Source: Flavobacterium sp. AG291 (GTDB lineage Bacteria > Bacteroidota > Bacteroidia > Flavobacteriales > Flavobacteriaceae). Taken from it: a stretch of DNA of 64,000 bases. Made by a program: the position numbers and the translations under genes. The DNA lies in assembly GCF_003350375.1 (NCBI RefSeq), contig NZ_QQAR01000001.1, positions 124,001-188,000 of the forward strand. Reading direction: 5' to 3'. Within the stretch, counting starts at the first letter, position 1, and every line of letters begins with the position of its first letter. The notes below the pieces were generated by a model that was not told the origin of the DNA, did not search any database, and saw nothing but the letters and a program-made list of their open reading frames with translations. Below, one piece after another: positions 15,114-36,890 of this stretch.

Positions 15114-16028
15114 ATGAAAATCATTTTGAACGCTCAGGAAAATCAGATATCTTTTAAATCTCTATTTGCAGATTTTGTTGCAATAACGAAAGCCAGGCTG
15201 GCTATTAGTGTTGTTTTTTCATCTGTAGCCGGATACCTTTTAGGGTTTTCCGAATTCTATCCTTTCAGCTGGGCTACTCTTGTACTTCTTACTATTGGTG
15301 GCTATTGTATGGTTGGGGCTTCAAACGTTTTTAACCAGATCATAGAAAAAGATCTTGATGCTTTAATGGACAGGACTAAGAATCGTCCGGTGCCTTCAGG
15401 TAAAATGTCTGTAAAAACTGCATTTATATTAGGTGCAGTCCTTACGATTATAGGTATTGCAATTTTATATAGCATCAACCCTAAAACAGCTATGTTTGGG
15501 GCTATTTCAATCTTCTTATATACTAGTATTTATACACCGCTTAAAACTAAGACACCTCTTGCGGTTTTTGTTGGTGCATTTCCGGGGGCTATACCTTTCA
15601 TGTTAGGATGGGTTGCTGCTACCGGCGAGTTTGGTGTCGAAGCCGGAACATTGTTTTTAGTTCAGTTCTTTTGGCAATTTCCGCACTTTTGGGCAATAGG
15701 CTGGTTCTTGTATGATGATTATAAGAAGGCGGGATTCTTTATGTTGCCTACTGGCAGGAAAGATAAAAAAACGGCATTACAGACGATATTATATACTGTT
15801 TGGCTTATAATTGCCTCATTGCTCCCTGTGACCGGTTTTACGGGAGAGCTTAAGCTTAGTGTAGTGTCGGCTGTAGTTGTTTTTCTTCTTGGTTTGTGGA
15901 TGTTGGTTTATGCAGTTAAATTGTATAAGAAGATGGACGCGTCGGCGGCAAAAAAACTGATGTTGGTGAGTGTTTCATACATTTCATTGCTTCAGGTTAT
16001 ATATGTGATTGATAAATTTATTCGATAA
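15114..16028 (+). CDS. ctaB: Protoheme IX farnesyltransferase (heme O synthase)
   Basis: 304 residues, UbiA-family membrane prenyltransferase that attaches farnesyl to heme b to make heme O, the precursor of heme A/O in terminal oxidases. The first Asp-rich motif is visible as NVFNQIIEKDLDALMDRT (near residues 66-83) followed by the family-typical KNRPVPSGK; nine or so hydrophobic helices follow. Two bases separate its stop from the first COX subunit III gene, so it heads the oxidase operon. The family assignment is secure. Confidence 0.96.
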   Translation: MKIILNAQENQISFKSLFADFVAITKARLAISVVFSSVAGYLLGFSEFYPFSWATLVLLTIGGYCMVGASNVFNQIIEKDLDALMDRTKNRPVPSGKMSVKTAFILGAVLTIIGIAILYSINPKTAMFGAISIFLYTSIYTPLKTKTPLAVFVGAFPGAIPFMLGWVAATGEFGVEAGTLFLVQFFWQFPHFWAIGWFLYDDYKKAGFFMLPTGRKDKKTALQTILYTVWLIIASLLPVTGFTGELKLSVVSAVVVFLLGLWMLVYAVKLYKKMDASAAKKLMLVSVSYISLLQVIYVIDKFIR

Positions 16029-16030
16029 TT

Positions 16031-16609
16031 ATGGAAATGTCTCTTAAAGAGCATAACGAAAGGAATGCCAGATCTAAAAAAATGATATTATGGTTTGCCA
16101 TGATAAGCATGTTTATGATGTTTGCGGGGTTAACCAGTGCCTATGTTGTAAGTTCGTCAAGACCTGACTGGGTGAAGGATTTTGTCTTACCGTCTGCTTT
16201 TATAATAAGCACGGTTGTGATTGTGGCCAGCAGTATAACATTTCACATGGCGAAGCTTTCGATTAAGAAAAACGATACGAAGGCAACAGGGATGTGGCTT
16301 ATAGCGACACTTGTGTTAGGTGTTGCTTTTGTTTTGGCTCAGTTTAATGGGTTTTCACAGGTAATTAAAGAAGGGTACTATTTTACCGGACCGGAGAGTA
16401 CAGTTACTACTTCTTTTCTTTATATAGTTACAGTTGTGCATATGTTGCACCTGTTTGCAGGGCTTATTGTATTGCTTGTTGTAATTTATAATCATTTTAA
16501 ACAAAAATACAATGCTTCTCAAACCCTTGGATTAGAGTTAGGTGCAATGTTTTGGCACTTTCTCGATATTTTATGGGTATATTTGTTTTTATTTTTCTAT
16601 TTCTATTAA
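16031..16609 (+). CDS. Heme-copper oxidase subunit III (short form)
   Basis: 192 residues with five predicted membrane helices, the length of the subunit III of quinol and caa3-type oxidases. Typical features are FAGLTSAYVVSSSRPDW in helix 1-2, VHMLHLFAGL in the fourth helix and a C-terminal GAMFWHFLDILWVYLFLFFYFY. Subunit III stabilises the oxidase core and has no redox centre. It is followed 47 bases later by a second, longer subunit III gene, so the two probably belong to one complex or to two oxidases sharing an operon. No subunit I or II gene is in the window. Confidence 0.9.
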   Translation: MEMSLKEHNERNARSKKMILWFAMISMFMMFAGLTSAYVVSSSRPDWVKDFVLPSAFIISTVVIVASSITFHMAKLSIKKNDTKATGMWLIATLVLGVAFVLAQFNGFSQVIKEGYYFTGPESTVTTSFLYIVTVVHMLHLFAGLIVLLVVIYNHFKQKYNASQTLGLELGAMFWHFLDILWVYLFLFFYFY

Positions 16610-16623
16610 TAGAAAAAATAGTG

Positions 16624-16631
16624 TAAATTTG
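16624..16631 (+). promoter_or_regulatory. Possible internal promoter -7 element before second subunit III
   Basis: TAAATTTG matches TAnnTTTG, 25 bases before the ATG of the second subunit III gene, in the only sizeable gap of the first part of the operon. No TTG -33 element is evident. Confidence 0.45.
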
Positions 16632-16656
16632 GAAACTTTTTAACCAATAACTTTAT

Positions 16657-17646
16657 ATGGCAGCGACAGTTACTACAACAGCTACTACTACAGGTAAAAC
16701 ATGGGGCGGAGGAAATGAGCCTATGGGAGCAAGTTATGGCAAGATGATGATGTGGTTTTTCATCGTATCGGATGCGCTAACTTTCTCGGGATTCCTTGCA
16801 GCTTACGGTTTTTCTCGATTTAAATTCATTGAAACTTGGCCTATAGCCGATGAGGTGTTTAATCACTTTCCATTTATGCATGGTGTTGATGCACCGATGT
16901 ATTATGTGGCATTCATGACATTTATACTAATTTTCTCTTCAGTAACAATGGTGCTTGCAGTAGATGCAGGTCATCATCTGAAAAAAACCAAAGTTGCAAT
17001 CTATATGTTGCTAACTATCGTTGGTGGTTTTATTTTTCTTGGTTCTCAGGCTTGGGAATGGAAAAACTTCATCAAAGGTGAGTTTGGAGCAGTAGAAACT
17101 AAGGGTGGTTCTATTCTTCAGTTTGTGAAGATGGGAGAGAATGGTAAATACGAAAGGGTTGCTCTTGCAGATTTTGCTGCAACACTGCCTACTGATCGTG
17201 TTAACAAAGTAAGAAGTAACGGTATTTGGTTTGAAGAAACTGCTGCTTTACCAACTTATTCTGTTGAAGAAGTGAAAGAAGGGCTTAAAGCTCATCCTGA
17301 AGTTCTTGTGAGAACAGAAAAGATTGTTAAGAAACATAAAGAAGTATTAAGCAGAGAAGAGTCTCTTAAGAGAATTGAAGATGCTACTATCGTAGTTGAA
17401 GGTGCTAACCTTATAAGAAATGAGTATGGACACAAATTGTTCGCTAACTTCTTCTTCTTTATTACAGGTTTCCACGGATTCCACGTATTCTCAGGTGTAA
17501 TGATTAATGTGCTTATTTTCTTTAACGTATTGCTTGGTACATACGAAAAAAGAAGAAGCTACGAGATGGTTGAGAAAGTTGGTCTTTACTGGCACTTTGT
17601 AGATTTAGTGTGGGTATTTGTGTTCACATTCTTCTACCTTGTTTAA
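16657..17646 (+). CDS. Cytochrome c oxidase subunit III with large hydrophilic insertion
   Basis: 329 residues, far longer than the short subunit III beside it. Start and end match the family (MMMWFFIVSDALTFSGFLAAYGFSRF; HGFHVFSGVMINVL; GLYWHFVDLVWVFVFTFFYLV). Between the third helix (GSQAWEW) and the next one, about residues 142-255 form a charged, lysine/glutamate-rich stretch absent from ordinary subunit III. This insertion would face one side of the membrane as an extra soluble domain. It probably belongs to the oxidase whose core subunits lie elsewhere. The N-terminus is a Thr-rich tail. Confidence 0.9.
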   Translation: MAATVTTTATTTGKTWGGGNEPMGASYGKMMMWFFIVSDALTFSGFLAAYGFSRFKFIETWPIADEVFNHFPFMHGVDAPMYYVAFMTFILIFSSVTMVLAVDAGHHLKKTKVAIYMLLTIVGGFIFLGSQAWEWKNFIKGEFGAVETKGGSILQFVKMGENGKYERVALADFAATLPTDRVNKVRSNGIWFEETAALPTYSVEEVKEGLKAHPEVLVRTEKIVKKHKEVLSREESLKRIEDATIVVEGANLIRNEYGHKLFANFFFFITGFHGFHVFSGVMINVLIFFNVLLGTYEKRRSYEMVEKVGLYWHFVDLVWVFVFTFFYLV

Positions 17647-17667
17647 TTTTATTTAAAAGTATTTATC

Positions 17668-18021
17668 ATGGCACATTCGCACGAATCTAATACAAAAAGA
17701 ATCTGGACAGTTTTCGGATTGTTATCAATAATAACAATTGTAGAGGTGATACTTGGTATTGCTAAACCGGCATCTTTACATGATACTCATCTTGCCCAGA
17801 TGAATTTGCTTAACTGGATATTCATTATTCTTACTATAGTAAAAGCTTACTACATTATGTGGGCGTTTATGCACCTTGAGGGTGAGAAGAGCAGTCTAAG
17901 GTGGTCTATTGTGGCACCGTTAGTATTCCTAATTATCTATTTAGTGTTCATCTTGCTGATAGAAGGTAATTATGTTTTTGAAGTGTTTGGAACAGCTCAC
18001 AATTATAAGTGGATTTTCTAA
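17668..18021 (+). CDS. Cytochrome c oxidase subunit IV (prokaryotic type)
   Basis: 117 residues, three membrane helices, matching the small COX4 subunit of caa3/quinol oxidases. Typical elements: KRIWTVFGLLSIITIVEVILG, then FIILTIVKAYYIMWAFMHLEGE, then a final helix. The N-terminus is His-rich (MAHSHES). It follows subunit III by 21 bases and ends the first oxidase transcription unit, since a strong terminator follows. No catalytic role is expected. Confidence 0.92.
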   Translation: MAHSHESNTKRIWTVFGLLSIITIVEVILGIAKPASLHDTHLAQMNLLNWIFIILTIVKAYYIMWAFMHLEGEKSSLRWSIVAPLVFLIIYLVFILLIEGNYVFEVFGTAHNYKWIF

Positions 18022-18036
18022 TAACACATTAATTAT

Positions 18037-18066
18037 AAAAGGCGGTTTTTAAACCGCCTTTTTTTT
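18037..18066 (+). terminator. Intrinsic terminator after COX subunit IV
   Basis: Stem AAAGGCGGTTT/AAACCGCCTTT followed by eight T. It divides the oxidase block into two transcription units; the downstream unit has its own -7 element starting in the last T. Confidence 0.92.
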
Positions 18067-18073
18067 AATTTTG
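18066..18073 (+). promoter_or_regulatory. Promoter -7 element for the SCO/DUF420 unit
   Basis: TAATTTTG matches TAnnTTTG and sits directly behind the T-run of the terminator. It overlaps the only upstream alternative start of the next gene (TTG at 18071), which argues for the ATG at 18098 instead. Confidence 0.6.
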
Positions 18074-18097
18074 CATACAGATGCTTTCCTTATTACC

Positions 18098-18772
18098 ATG
18101 AAAAAGAAAATTGTTCTGATCATACTTCTTGTTTTGCCTCTTTCGTGTTATATTTATTTTGCACTGGCTAAACATAATGCTCTTAATTTACCTGTCATTA
18201 CTGAAAATGTGAGTGAACTTCCTAAGGGGGCTACACTTGATAATAAACCTGTTTCCCTTCAGGGAAGCATAAGTATCGTTGGTTTTTTGGGTAATGATAT
18301 TACTAAAAAAAAGGAAACGGTTTTTAATATCAATGAAAAAATAAACAATAAGTATAAAGGCTTTACTGATTTTCAGATTGTGATGCTTATGCCTAAAGGT
18401 GAAGAGCAGGAAGTTGAGAAAGTTATGGCTGAACTTAAAGTTATGGCTGATATTTCTAACTGGAGATTTTTGTTTGTAGAGCCTAATCAGATTGCTGAAT
18501 TCCATAGTTCTCTTAAAGTTAAAGAACCTATGGATGCCGATAATGGTACTTATTATCTTTTCATTGTTGATAAGGACCGTAAACTTAGGGGTAGAGACGG
18601 GAAGATGAAAGATAAAAAGACCGGCAAATATGAATTTAAAGATGGATATAATTCTTTTATTGTCGCTGAGCTTCATAATGAAATGACGGATGATATTAAG
18701 ATATTGCTTAGGGAATATCGTTTGGCACTGAAAAAGAATAATAATCTGAAGGGGGTTAAGAGAGAAATATAA
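18098..18772 (+). CDS. SCO/thioredoxin-fold-like membrane protein lacking copper-binding cysteines
   Basis: 224 residues with one N-terminal membrane anchor (KKKIVLIILLVLPLSCYIYF). The rest resembles a thioredoxin/SCO fold: a GSISIVGFLG strand where SCO has its CxxxC strand, and a later LFIVDKDRKLRGRDGK segment that parallels LFALVDKEGNVRSRRDK in the true SCO three bases downstream. The CxxxC and the conserved His are absent, so copper delivery or thiol chemistry is unlikely. It could be a structural partner of oxidase assembly. Start at the ATG 18098 is chosen because the -7 element covers the earlier TTG. Relationship to SCO is my inference from this similarity and the neighbourhood. Confidence 0.75.
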   Translation: MKKKIVLIILLVLPLSCYIYFALAKHNALNLPVITENVSELPKGATLDNKPVSLQGSISIVGFLGNDITKKKETVFNINEKINNKYKGFTDFQIVMLMPKGEEQEVEKVMAELKVMADISNWRFLFVEPNQIAEFHSSLKVKEPMDADNGTYYLFIVDKDRKLRGRDGKMKDKKTGKYEFKDGYNSFIVAELHNEMTDDIKILLREYRLALKKNNNLKGVKREI

Positions 18773-18774
18773 TT

Positions 18775-19404
18775 ATGAAGAATAAATATTCATATGTTGG
18801 GATTTCATTCATAATCCTGATATTCGGTATATGGGCTGTGCCAAAAATTGTTGAAAAATTCCAAAAATCTGATTTAGTTACCATAGGTCGTGTTCCTGAA
18901 TTTAAGTTAACAGACCAGAATAATAAAGTGATAACTGATAAAGATTACCTGGGTAAGGTTTATGTAGTTGAATTTTTCTTTAGCACATGTCCTTCCATTT
19001 GTCCAAAAATGAACCAGAATATGCTACTGCTTCAGCAGGAGTTTTATGGTAACCCTAAATTTGGAATTGCATCGATTACGATCAATCCGGAATATGATAC
19101 TCCAAAAGTTTTAAAAGAACATGCTGAACTTTTAGGGGTTAAACATTATAACTGGCATTTTTTAACGGGTGACAGGGAATATATTTATAATCTGGCGAAG
19201 AAAGGGTTTAACCTGTATGCTGGTGCTGATAAGACTGCACCGGGTGGTTTTGAGCATTCGGGGCTTTTTGCTTTAGTTGATAAAGAGGGAAACGTTCGCA
19301 GCAGAAGGGACAAATACGGTAACCCGATTGCTTTTTATGACGGACTTGATGATAATGGTGTAAAAGATATTAAAGAGGATATTAAAAAATTATTAGAAGA
19401 ATAA
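18775..19404 (+). CDS. SCO1/SenC family copper chaperone
   Basis: 209 residues, membrane-anchored (helix near 8-22) periplasmic thioredoxin fold that inserts copper into the CuA site of cytochrome c oxidase. The copper ligands are all present: Cys72 and Cys76 in STCPSICPKM, and His161 in GGFEHSGLFALVDK. The placement between an oxidase subunit block and DUF420 supports a role in oxidase assembly. Its stop shares one base with the DUF420 start (TAATG), so the two are translationally coupled. Confidence 0.94.
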   Translation: MKNKYSYVGISFIILIFGIWAVPKIVEKFQKSDLVTIGRVPEFKLTDQNNKVITDKDYLGKVYVVEFFFSTCPSICPKMNQNMLLLQQEFYGNPKFGIASITINPEYDTPKVLKEHAELLGVKHYNWHFLTGDREYIYNLAKKGFNLYAGADKTAPGGFEHSGLFALVDKEGNVRSRRDKYGNPIAFYDGLDDNGVKDIKEDIKKLLEE

Positions 19405-19988
19405 TGGATAATACTAACGCTATTGAAAAAAAATACAATATCTGGATAATAATACTATCACTGGCAATCCCGTTGGTAGTAGCCTTACTGATGGTTGTAA
19501 AACTTAAGGATTTTGGTTTTGATGTAAAACCTTTGACTTTTCTTCCTCCCATTTATGCAGCAATAAACGGTATTACTGCGGTAGTGCTTATTGTAGCCGT
19601 ACGTGCCATTAAAAACGGTAAACAGGATTTGCATGAAAAGCTTATGAAATTTGCTATTTGCCTTTCGGTTGCCTTTTTAGGAATGTATGTTGCTTATCAC
19701 ATGACATCGGAATCAACAGCTTTTGGTGATTTGAATCACGATGGTGTTGCCGATGCAATGGAGAAAGCTAAAGTAGGAGGTATACGTTATCTGTATTATT
19801 TTATATTACTGACGCACATTTTACTTTCAGTAATAATCATACCTTTTGTGTTGCTGACGTATGTGCGTGCGCTTTCTAAGAGTTTCCTTAGGCATAAGAA
19901 GCTTGCAAGGATTACATATCCTATGTGGTTATATGTTGCTGTTACAGGAGTGATAGTTTACCTTATGATTTCTCCATATTATAATTAA
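19404..19988 (+). CDS. DUF420 family membrane protein, oxidase-assembly related (CtaM-like)
   Basis: 194 residues with about five membrane helices. DUF420 includes CtaM/YozB, which is needed for heme-copper oxidase activity in Gram-positive bacteria; a similar role is inferred here from family and from SCO and COX neighbours. The helical core is typical (AAINGITAVVLIVAVRAIKNGKQDLHEKLM and RYLYYFILLTHILLSV). Unusually, the loop between helices 3 and 4 carries DLNHDGVADAME (residues 109-120), a complete 12-residue EF-hand-like calcium loop with ligands at positions 1, 3, 5, 9 and 12. Confidence 0.88.
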   Translation: MDNTNAIEKKYNIWIIILSLAIPLVVALLMVVKLKDFGFDVKPLTFLPPIYAAINGITAVVLIVAVRAIKNGKQDLHEKLMKFAICLSVAFLGMYVAYHMTSESTAFGDLNHDGVADAMEKAKVGGIRYLYYFILLTHILLSVIIIPFVLLTYVRALSKSFLRHKKLARITYPMWLYVAVTGVIVYLMISPYYN

Positions 19989-19999
19989 TTCGAATTGTT

Positions 20000-20236
20000 A
20001 TGTTGAGGATGAAATACCTTTTTGCATTATCGCTAATAATGCTTTTTTCAGTAACAACAAATGCGCAATGTGCGATGTGTCGTGCGGCATTAGAAAGCAG
20101 CGATGGTAATGTAAAAGCAGAGGCGGTTAATGATGGTATAGTTTACCTGATGATATTTCCTTATTTACTTGTAGGTCTTGTTGGGTATGCTGTGTACAGA
20201 TTAAGGAACAAGAAAAAAGATGATCTTGCAGAATAG
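20000..20236 (+). CDS. Small CxxC membrane protein of the oxidase cluster
   Basis: 78 residues (75 if the second in-frame ATG at 20009 is used). A signal peptide ends near NAQ and is followed at once by CAMC (Cys24, Cys27), a short polar segment, one membrane helix (YLMIFPYLLVGLVGYAVY) and a basic/acidic tail. The CxxC would face the periplasm, next to the membrane. I recognise no named family. Its place after SCO and DUF420 and before a strong terminator suggests a part in copper or heme handling for the oxidase; that is inference only. Confidence 0.75.
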   Translation: MLRMKYLFALSLIMLFSVTTNAQCAMCRAALESSDGNVKAEAVNDGIVYLMIFPYLLVGLVGYAVYRLRNKKKDDLAE

Positions 20237-35514: not shown

Positions 35515-35531
35515 TCTAAAAAGTTCGGATT

Positions 35532-36890
35532 ATGAAATTACTTAGGGTCTTTTTAATAAGTATGCTTGGTTTTTCTGCCCTGGCACAGACTGCTCCAAAA
35601 TGTGAGGACAGTTTTAAGGTGTTTGAAGGGAAGTATTTAACCAAAGAGTATAATGATGCATATGATTTGCTTGCAGACTTAAGAAAAAGATGTCCTAAAG
35701 TAAGTGAGAATCTATACAATTATGCTGAGGTAATACTTAAGTATAAGATTGAGGTGGCAACTTTGCCGGAAGAGAAAAAACCTTTTGTTGCAGAGCTTGT
35801 TTCTGTCTATAATGAGCAGTCACTGAATTATCCTGCGAGCAAGGGTGCGGTTAATAAGATTCAACTGCAGTATGATTATAAATTAATTAATGACGCTGAA
35901 GCATATAAAGCGCTCGATGCTGCCTTTGCTAAAAACAGGAAATCGTTTATTGATTATAATGTTCTGCTAACATATTATAACCTGTTTTTTGAAGAGTATA
36001 AAGCGGGAAAGGGTATTACGGATGATCAGTACTTCGATAAGTATGGCGAGATAACTGCTCAGGTGCTTAGTGCTCAGGCTGAAATTGCCAGGGAAAAAGA
36101 AGCACTTTTAAAAAAGGCGGAAAATCAGTCAGTGACAGATATAGAAAGGCAATTTATTGCTGATGCTGATATCAATATTGATGGCCTTGAAAATGTGAAT
36201 GAAGTTATTTTTTCACAAAGTAGAGATTATGTAAGTTGTGATAAGCTGAATGCTTATTATGCTAAGAATTATGATGCTCATAAAGCGGATTATATTTGGG
36301 TGGAGGCAATGGTAAATGCACTTTATGCTAAAAAGTGTTTTAAATCAGAAGTGTTGCAAAAAGGTGCTTTGGCGCTGGATTCAATGAAACATTCAAAGGA
36401 GTCTGTCTATAAGTTGGGTATGCTTGCCTTGAAAAAGGGAGATGTGGATGCCGGCATTAAATATCTGGACCAGTCTGCAAATCTTGAAAAAGATTTTAGT
36501 CAAAAAGCTAAAATTTATTACGAGATAGTTAATGCATCTAAAAATAAAGATAAGGCGCTTGCAAAAAAATATATTTTTAAAACGATAGAGGTAGATCCAA
36601 ACAAAGTTGAGGTATATCTTGTCTTGTCGGAAATGTATGCTAACATGTCTTCGAAAAGTGAGTGTAAACTTACTGACTTTGAAAGAAAAGTGCTTAATTA
36701 TCTGGCAATCGATACTGCGAAAAAGGCTGCTTCTGTAGCGAAGTATAAAGTTGCTTCTGATGAGGCTGTTAAACGATATAGTAAAAATCTGCCAACTAAA
36801 GCAGAGGCTAAAGTTTTAGGTAAGAAAAAAGGGGATGTTATTACTTTTGGCTGTTGGGTCAACGAAAGTGTAACTCTTCCAAATTTATAA
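35532..36890 (+). CDS. Periplasmic TPR-type protein
   Basis: 452 residues. Signal peptide to residue 18 or 19 (LGFSALAQ). The rest is alpha-helical with several tetratricopeptide-like pairs, for example SKGAVNKIQLQYDYKLINDAEAY and KLGMLALKKGDVDAGIKYLDQSA (the latter near residues 296-318). Such proteins usually act as scaffolds. The C-terminus (VITFGCWVNESVTLPNL) recalls proteins of this operon in other flavobacteria. Function unknown; the position just before lptC hints at lipopolysaccharide or outer-membrane assembly, as inference. Confidence 0.75.
   Translation: MKLLRVFLISMLGFSALAQTAPKCEDSFKVFEGKYLTKEYNDAYDLLADLRKRCPKVSENLYNYAEVILKYKIEVATLPEEKKPFVAELVSVYNEQSLNYPASKGAVNKIQLQYDYKLINDAEAYKALDAAFAKNRKSFIDYNVLLTYYNLFFEEYKAGKGITDDQYFDKYGEITAQVLSAQAEIAREKEALLKKAENQSVTDIERQFIADADINIDGLENVNEVIFSQSRDYVSCDKLNAYYAKNYDAHKADYIWVEAMVNALYAKKCFKSEVLQKGALALDSMKHSKESVYKLGMLALKKGDVDAGIKYLDQSANLEKDFSQKAKIYYEIVNASKNKDKALAKKYIFKTIEVDPNKVEVYLVLSEMYANMSSKSECKLTDFERKVLNYLAIDTAKKAASVAKYKVASDEAVKRYSKNLPTKAEAKVLGKKKGDVITFGCWVNESVTLPNL

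Follow-up and report, generated by a model that had tools for sequence, protein, structure and literature searches.

A putative structural calcium clamp in DUF420 (CtaM-type) proteins of the Bacteroidia: an EF-hand-like loop with two length states

The DUF420 (CtaM-type) protein encoded in the window, a stretch of 64,000 nucleotides from Flavobacterium sp. AG291 (contig NZ_QQAR01000001.1), carries an EF-hand-like loop, DLNHDGVADAME, whose ligand positions are constrained across ten bacterial families. As far as sequence comparison can tell, this is very likely a real Ca2+-type loop. Our preferred reading, with a probability of roughly 0.6, is that the loop serves a CtaM-type assembly factor as a structural Ca2+ clamp next to a conserved pair of histidines, existing as two alleles and repeatedly lost or exchanged. 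The function of CtaM is disputed, and natural alleles differing by a 14-residue loop beside the outer histidine pair offer a clean handle on it, as the allele pair could show which face of CtaM matters and whether calcium does.

The DUF420 gene, its neighbors and its loop

The DUF420 gene and the genes around it are listed here in genome order, with locus counts that refer to the 254 DUF420 loci described below.

15114-18021, + strand, UbiA/CtaB-type, COX3, COX3 and COX4 genes of the oxidase cluster (PF01040, PF00510 twice, PF03626)
18071-18772, + strand, hypothetical protein preceding SCO (homologues at 165 of the 254 loci)
18775-19404, + strand, SCO1/SenC, directly upstream of DUF420, with a one-base overlap with its start (PF02630, E 1.2e-26)
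19404-19988, + strand, DUF420 (CtaM-type) integral membrane protein, 194 aa (PF04238, E 4.6e-44)
20000-20236, + strand, small CAMC-motif protein with a single hydrophobic stretch (homologues at 180 of the 254 loci)

The 194-aa protein scores 150.3 bits with PF04238 against a curated cut-off of 30.5. The Pfam matches and the gene order thus bear out the first-pass annotation, which had named a CtaM-like DUF420 protein close to SCO and COX genes. An SCO homologue is found on the same strand at 222 of the 254 loci, and the CAMC protein directly downstream of DUF420 may be its partner in copper or redox chemistry. COX1 is best matched in this genome about 24 kb upstream on the same contig, of which the window starts at base 124001, and a COX15-CtaA match lies on another contig. 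In total, the genome contains both heme-copper oxidase and heme A genes (SCO, COX3, COX4, CtaB-type, COX1 and COX15-CtaA), in keeping with a CtaM-type protein. By analogy with its family, the window protein would have a role in oxidase assembly. A strong terminator-like hairpin was also observed at 18037-18062, between COX4 and the group of hypothetical, SCO, DUF420 and CAMC genes, which suggests two transcription units.

The features within the DUF420 gene that the following sections refer to are given here, with histidine counts taken over the aligned rows.

19632-19634, + strand, H77, inner end of TM3 (H in 253/255 rows, 2 gaps)
19698-19700, + strand, H99, outer end of TM3, flanking the loop (H in 244/255 rows)
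19728-19763, + strand, residues 109-120, EF-hand-like loop DLNHDGVADAME, a putative Ca2+ loop (ligand conservation, loop profile against the PDB)
19728-19775, + strand, residues 109-124, segment that replaces two residues (usually GE) of short-loop homologues (alignment)
19815-19817, + strand, H138, outer half of TM4, flanking the loop (H in 255/255 rows)
19893-19895, + strand, H164, inner end of TM5 (H in 254/255 rows, 1 X)

The loop stands at residues 109-120, 19728-19763, exactly where it had first been reported. Its positions 1, 3, 5, 9 and 12 are D, N, D, D and E, which are the side-chain ligands expected of an EF-hand, and DLNHDG followed by D9 and E12 gives the linear motif Dx[DN]xDG with a later acidic ligand. 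The initial description of a full EF-hand loop pattern holds for these side-chain positions and is overstated otherwise, as position 8 is Ala, which falls outside the hydrophobic set of the EF-hand pattern, and position 13 is Lys. Because of these two residues, PROSITE pattern PS00018 does not match the window loop. There is one such motif in the protein, leaving no second EF-hand in the chain with which it could pair.

Two matches to the strict pattern D.[DNS].[DNS]G..[DNSE]..[DE] were counted among the 52 window ORFs (20,421 aa), compared to a mean of 0.087 and a maximum of 2 in 300 residue shuffles of the same ORFs, an estimate that covers the window. It arose in 1 of 20,000 shuffles of the DUF420 open frame. 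A chance origin of the motif is unlikely, and the comparative evidence for the loop is stronger than this chance estimate. A second EF-hand-like motif in the window, DINIDGLENVNE, is located in a 456-residue open frame at 35520-36887.

An AlphaFold2 model computed on 54 sequences (mean pLDDT 87.8, pTM 0.82) predicts helices at residues 3-31, 34-37, 47-70, 74-101, 118-124, 127-157 and 161-192. Five of these are long, in agreement with hydropathy, and CtaM proteins have four or five transmembrane helices. A second model headed by the long-loop protein L041 (40 sequences, largely the same as in the first) shows the same layout. In both models the short helix that follows (118-124 in the first) is predicted to start at loop position 10, the same point at which the exiting helix begins in an EF-hand. 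For the first model, block pLDDT values are 79 for residues 101-110 and 85 for 111-120. TM3 is predicted to end at residue 101, seven residues short of D109, so in the model no entering helix abuts the loop and the helix-loop-helix arrangement of an EF-hand is incomplete.

The claim that the loop lies between two membrane helices agrees with this model, and charge places it on the outer side. Lys and Arg number 5 in residues 67-82 (with 2 acidic residues), 6 in 153-172 (no acidic residues) and 3 in 100-128 (5 acidic residues). The positive-inside rule relates such a bias to membrane topology, and by this rule the loop is probably on the outer, periplasmic face. The four near-invariant histidines would then be distributed two per membrane face in the model, with the loop joining the helices of the outer pair, H99/H138.

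The DUF420 protein (19404-19988) may also be distantly related to COX subunit III (16031-16609). In a Foldseek search of the DUF420 model against the PDB, the first 18 matches were cytochrome oxidase chains, with a best E of 0.017 and none below 0.001; from the chain letters, we take these 18 to be subunit III. Compared with the first COX3 of the operon, the DUF420 profile scored 38.1 (146 columns, probability 72.8). None of 60 block-shuffled controls exceeded 30.2 and none of five other neighbor profiles exceeded 24.1, and the second COX3 scored only 21.1. The VIA-align Z for this likeness, 11.3, is tied with that of de novo four-helix bundles. The titles and abstracts listed contain no claim of kinship between CtaM and subunit III, and one paper doubts an earlier proposal that made DUF420 the ancestor of CtaA (PMC12808453; PMC8239418).

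Constraint and distribution of the long loop

A DUF420 protein was obtained from 254 of 254 loci, comprising the window's own, those from genus, family, phylum and class searches, 80 stretches chosen by place and the best 80 of 346 named loci, with some genomes present twice. Because the stretches were partly chosen by hit length, the set is enriched in long loops, and frequencies were therefore taken from the searches and not from the set.

The spacing from H99 to H138 is 24 residues in 198 of the 254 rows (195 with His99, two with Trp and one truncated before residue 99). It is 38 residues in 42 rows, all of which carry the loop, including the window gene, and 22, 25, 27, 30 or 32 residues in 14 rows. 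The eight rows with a spacing of 30 and the three with 32 have their extra residues before the turn and do not contain the motif; no EF-hand remnant was seen in any of the 14. The short TM3-TM4 turn reads FG-GE-G in most relatives read, and the long form has sixteen residues where the short form has two, a net addition of 14 residues or 42 nt.

Among the 41 distinct loops (window included), D1 and E12 are present in all 41, as are N or D at position 3 and D, S or E at position 9, with D or N at position 5 in 40. Gly6 is found in 32, His at position 4 in 31, and L, V, M or I at position 8 in 40, the window's Ala being the sole exception. By comparison, positions 2, 10 and 11 each accept eight kinds of residue, and pairwise identity over the 12-mers averages 0.51 with a minimum of 0.17. 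PS00018 matches 9 of the 41 in full and 29 when position 13 is ignored. The first-pass annotation had pointed to a homologue alignment as the check on the loop, and the outcome is divided: of the 41 distinct loops, 40 fit at every one of the five side-chain ligand positions, the exception being DTDGIKGLSEAE (L214, the only one of the 42 long rows to deviate at such a position), and the motif D.[DNS].[DNS]G is absent between H99 and H138 from all 212 rows outside the 42 long ones.

A profile built from a hand-picked 35 of the 41 loops was searched against the PDB to E 10 and matched 39 sequences. The best was 6fgo, "Z-Ca" (E 0.0033, the sole match below E 0.05), an engineered protein; further matches included EF-hand proteins, lanmodulin, Eps15, polcalcin, aequorin, calmodulin and dockerins. 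Going by our reading of the molecule names, EF-hand, dockerin, lanmodulin or Z-Ca proteins account for 34 of the 39. The remaining five comprise two glucosidase II beta entries and one each named as an invariant surface glycoprotein, a hyaluronoglucosaminidase and a carbohydrate-binding protein. The window loop on its own matched one chain, a cellulosomal protein, at E 1.5. Pfam EF-hand models gave no match to the window at E up to 1 and were absent from the 25 commonest of the 70 families matched by the 54 members of a DUF420 alignment. When 10 other long-loop proteins were compared with Pfam, EF-hand_5 fell on the loop in three of them, below threshold (best E 0.0061). A PDB sequence search with the same alignment up to E 10 returned no solved DUF420 relative.

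In the searches, loop state was called by match length (429 or 426 nt compared to about 387), and long calls were confirmed by reading. Long loops were found in 14 of 61 genomes in the genus search (window included), in 2 of the 147 genomes with a match in the family search (the window and G175, the latter being the one long loop among 145 outside the genus), and in 15 of the 129 genomes with a match in the class search (window included). The phylum search added long loops in five of 18 Bacteroidia outside the family, two of them beyond the class sample; none was present among the 28 read of 43 matches from other classes of the phylum. Among the best 80 of 346 named loci, 11 are long, all labelled Flavobacterium, and named long-loop species include F. 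aurantiibacter, F. cyanobacteriorum, F. subsaxonicum, F. zepuense and F. saliperosum. An earlier suggestion was that oxidase assembly might respond to calcium "in this lineage", and the distribution does not sustain that wording, as the loop is patchy within the genus, occurs in one of the 145 other genera of the family and recurs in ten families of the class (codes f1, f3, f4, f6, f38, f46, f63, f64, f66 and f80). Close relatives of the window either have no loop or have one with its ligands intact. Since most of the homologues searched are without it, any Ca2+ role would be dispensable for the family.

Two groups of loci in this collection deserve comment. MAG contigs L047 (labelled Limnohabitans) and L096 (Massilibacillus) bear Flavobacterium- or Sphingobacterium-like DUF420 genes, and these labels are probably binning errors. 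Four loci, three of Pedobacter and one of Sphingobacterium (L036, L042, L046 and L049), encode DUF420 proteins 67-71% identical to the window's, with L036 and L049 falling among Flavobacterium in the DUF420 tree, and between-family transfer of DUF420 genes is possible at these loci.

History of the two length states

A DUF420 tree of 133 proteins, with loop columns removed and 15 partial or odd rows plus near-copies dropped, requires 20 changes of loop state, of which 7 are forced by well-supported branches. A tree of the neighboring SCO, hypothetical and CAMC proteins (149 rows, 23 of them long, from 160 loci minus near-copies; 521 columns) requires 14 changes, 10 of them forced. Long and short forms stand side by side in the neighbor tree (L143/L009 and L048/L160), and the window's clade of seven rows includes one short form, F. 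akiainvivens (L037), adjoining the long L041. A two-rate model fitted to this tree gave lnL -49.29 without restriction, against -52.15 when gains were forbidden and -64.15 when losses were, and a single gain without loss is rejected. From these values the long loop looks old and often lost in the Flavobacterium clade, on a quick tree with a midpoint root, where exchange with short alleles would mimic loss.

Twelve long/short pairs were aligned as DNA, and 10 of them differ in the gene by one clean 42-nt gap; in L048/L160 and L242/L251 the gap also totals 42 nt and is split in two. Six further aligned pairs represent one loop state only. Replacement of the whole gene was considered as a general account and rejected, as pairs of the L143/L009 type differ by a clean 42-nt gap with comparable identity in gene and flank. 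It would be odd for repeated loss to land on GGEG each time, and exchange with short alleles would explain this.

In a set of 29 species, the 3' segment of DUF420 groups the long-loop L143, L144 and L149 at 100/98. A single clade of the five long-loop species is not favored by the 3' segment (p-AU 0.067), and it is rejected by the 5' segment (p-AU 0.0017) and by the SCO and hypothetical genes (log-likelihood 148.6 lower), which place L143 with three short species at 99/98. In a hand-picked comparison of these three long-loop species with four short ones, fixed differences make up 13 of the 191 sites that vary in DUF420, three of them synonymous. The corresponding figures for the same species are 3 of 224 for SCO and 2 of 175 for the hypothetical gene. 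Sites joining L143 to the short species instead number 7, 6 and 6 in DUF420, SCO and the hypothetical gene, respectively. A linkage test on fourfold sites showed no clear linkage and has little power at a mean fourfold distance of 0.68. SCO fourfold sites show a small excess with loop state (0.013, p 0.01, the label shuffles behind this and the other loop-state p values ignoring relatedness). Amino-acid excess with loop state also occurs away from the loop, at residues 46-75 and 166-210. The pattern is suggestive of a local mosaic in one subclade, with exchange of the loop and 3' end within the gene. In the Flavobacterium clade as a whole, the long loop looks to have been lost repeatedly, perhaps in part by within-gene exchange of the loop.

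Proposed role and comparison with known systems

The mechanism we infer, in its Ca2+ binding, outer location, effect on the histidine pair and link to copper alike, would run as follows. The DUF420 protein would be a CtaM-type assembly factor for heme-copper oxidase with five transmembrane helices and four near-invariant histidines. In the window's allele the short TM3-TM4 turn is replaced by a 12-residue EF-hand-like loop, which would bind one Ca2+ in the periplasm. Bound Ca2+ would order the loop and cap the helix that follows, and the ordered loop would fix the outer ends of TM3 and TM4 and hence the H99/H138 pair, which may deal with the copper (or heme) that goes on to Sco or subunit I. 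Across the Bacteroidia there are two loop alleles, one short and one with 14 additional residues and its ligands intact. The loop would work as a structural clamp and not as a sensor, which is the likelier arrangement given that it is unpaired and that many relatives are without it. Counting against a clamp, the window loop departs furthest from the EF-hand pattern at position 8 among the 41, no Pfam EF-hand model matches it at E up to 1, its single PDB match stands at E 1.5, and just one of the 39 profile matches falls below E 0.05.

According to the CtaM literature, the heme-copper oxidases of Staphylococcus and Bacillus depend on CtaM for their function, and its proposed roles are in heme insertion, a late CuB step or copper export (PMC4958251, PMC9145763, PMC13344008), with export proposed in B. 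subtilis (PMC13344008, PMC9145763). One of these papers also describes Sco-DUF420 fusions (PMC13344008), which is in line with the SCO gene adjoining DUF420 in the window. For the ordering step, the engineered protein C2Ca provides a precedent: an EF-hand-type loop replaces a short loop before a helix and becomes ordered only when Ca2+ is present (PMC11532951), which makes Ca2+-dependent ordering of a loop before a helix feasible.

That same graft can serve as an order/disorder switch (PMC11532951), and the DUF420 loop could by extension sense periplasmic Ca2+ and tune oxidase assembly or copper delivery. The amino-acid changes linked to loop state are in fact largest beside the loop (residues 106-150, excess 0.045-0.067, p 0.003 by the same shuffles) and include residues 125, 128 and 132 in the seven-species comparison. 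A regulatory switch is nevertheless unlikely, as the loop is single and unpaired, most relatives do without it, and the SCO proteins show no loop-state difference beyond baseline (amino-acid excess -0.008, p 0.88 by these shuffles). In addition, free periplasmic Ca2+ is usually thought to be high enough to keep such a site filled. More ambitiously, the whole loop could be an exchangeable periplasmic calcium module, swapped into and out of DUF420/CtaM factors that handle copper and are orthologous in all other respects, in which case calcium would gate the metallation of the oxidase in some species but have no such hold on their sister species; we regard this as quite improbable.

Two further readings dispense with calcium. 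The acidic loop might instead serve docking or metal delivery (Sco, CuA, Cu+) or hold another ion, being EF-hand-like in sequence only. His4, found in 31 of 41 distinct loops, could bind copper, and the B. subtilis case suggests by analogy that the family works in copper handling (PMC13344008). What makes such a role doubtful is that His4 varies and constraint falls on EF-hand positions 1, 3, 5, 9 and 12, along with Gly6 (32 of 41) and a hydrophobic position 8 (40 of 41), and the profile matches in the PDB are mainly Ca2+ or lanthanide loops. Alternatively, the insert could be a functionless length variant tolerated in a surface loop. The absence of the loop from most relatives and its frequent loss, with the no-gain lnL (-52.15) far nearer the free value (-49.29) than the no-loss one (-64.15), are as such an account would have it. 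It is very unlikely all the same, since D1 and E12 are invariant in 41 loops that share a mean identity of just 0.51, L214 alone among the 42 long rows departs at a ligand position, and the 14 odd-length rows hold no decayed motif. A structural Ca2+ clamp is the reading we retain.

The titles and abstracts listed, which leave most subscription journals outside their coverage, contain no report of a calcium-type loop in CtaM/DUF420. The word "calcium" is likewise absent from the main texts of the CtaM/YozB papers (PMC4958251, PMC9145763, PMC13344008). As those texts describe them, CtaM and YozB of Bacillus and Staphylococcus share with the window protein the DUF420 domain, four to five transmembrane helices and an association with oxidase genes. 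The long-loop proteins of the Bacteroidia are a variant of this family, in a comparison that covers Bacteroidia loops.

With EF-hand domains such as those of calmodulin, polcalcin and lanmodulin, the window loop shares the side-chain ligand positions and, in the models, a helix start at loop position 10. Unlike them, it is single and unpaired, has no N-side helix abutting it, carries Ala at position 8 and remains below the cut-offs of the Pfam EF-hand models; the feature is an EF-hand-like loop and not an EF-hand domain. C2Ca (PMC11532951) is similar in having an EF-hand-type loop in place of a short loop adjoining a helix. C2Ca and Z-Ca (6fgo) are designed and soluble, however, whereas the DUF420 loop is natural and belongs to a membrane-bound protein.

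A further parallel is the Dx[DN]xDG motif class, which is described as occurring in only part of a homologous family in other proteins as well (PMC3123361). The window loop resembles this class in DLNHDG, in lying between regular elements with a helix after it, and in its acidic positions 9 and 12. The paper on this class mentions neither "DUF420" nor "cytochrome", and the loop differs from the class it describes in joining two transmembrane helices of a polytopic oxidase-assembly protein (PMC3123361). A Dx[DN]xDG loop placed between two such helices would thus be a new setting for the motif, and one with a two-state history.
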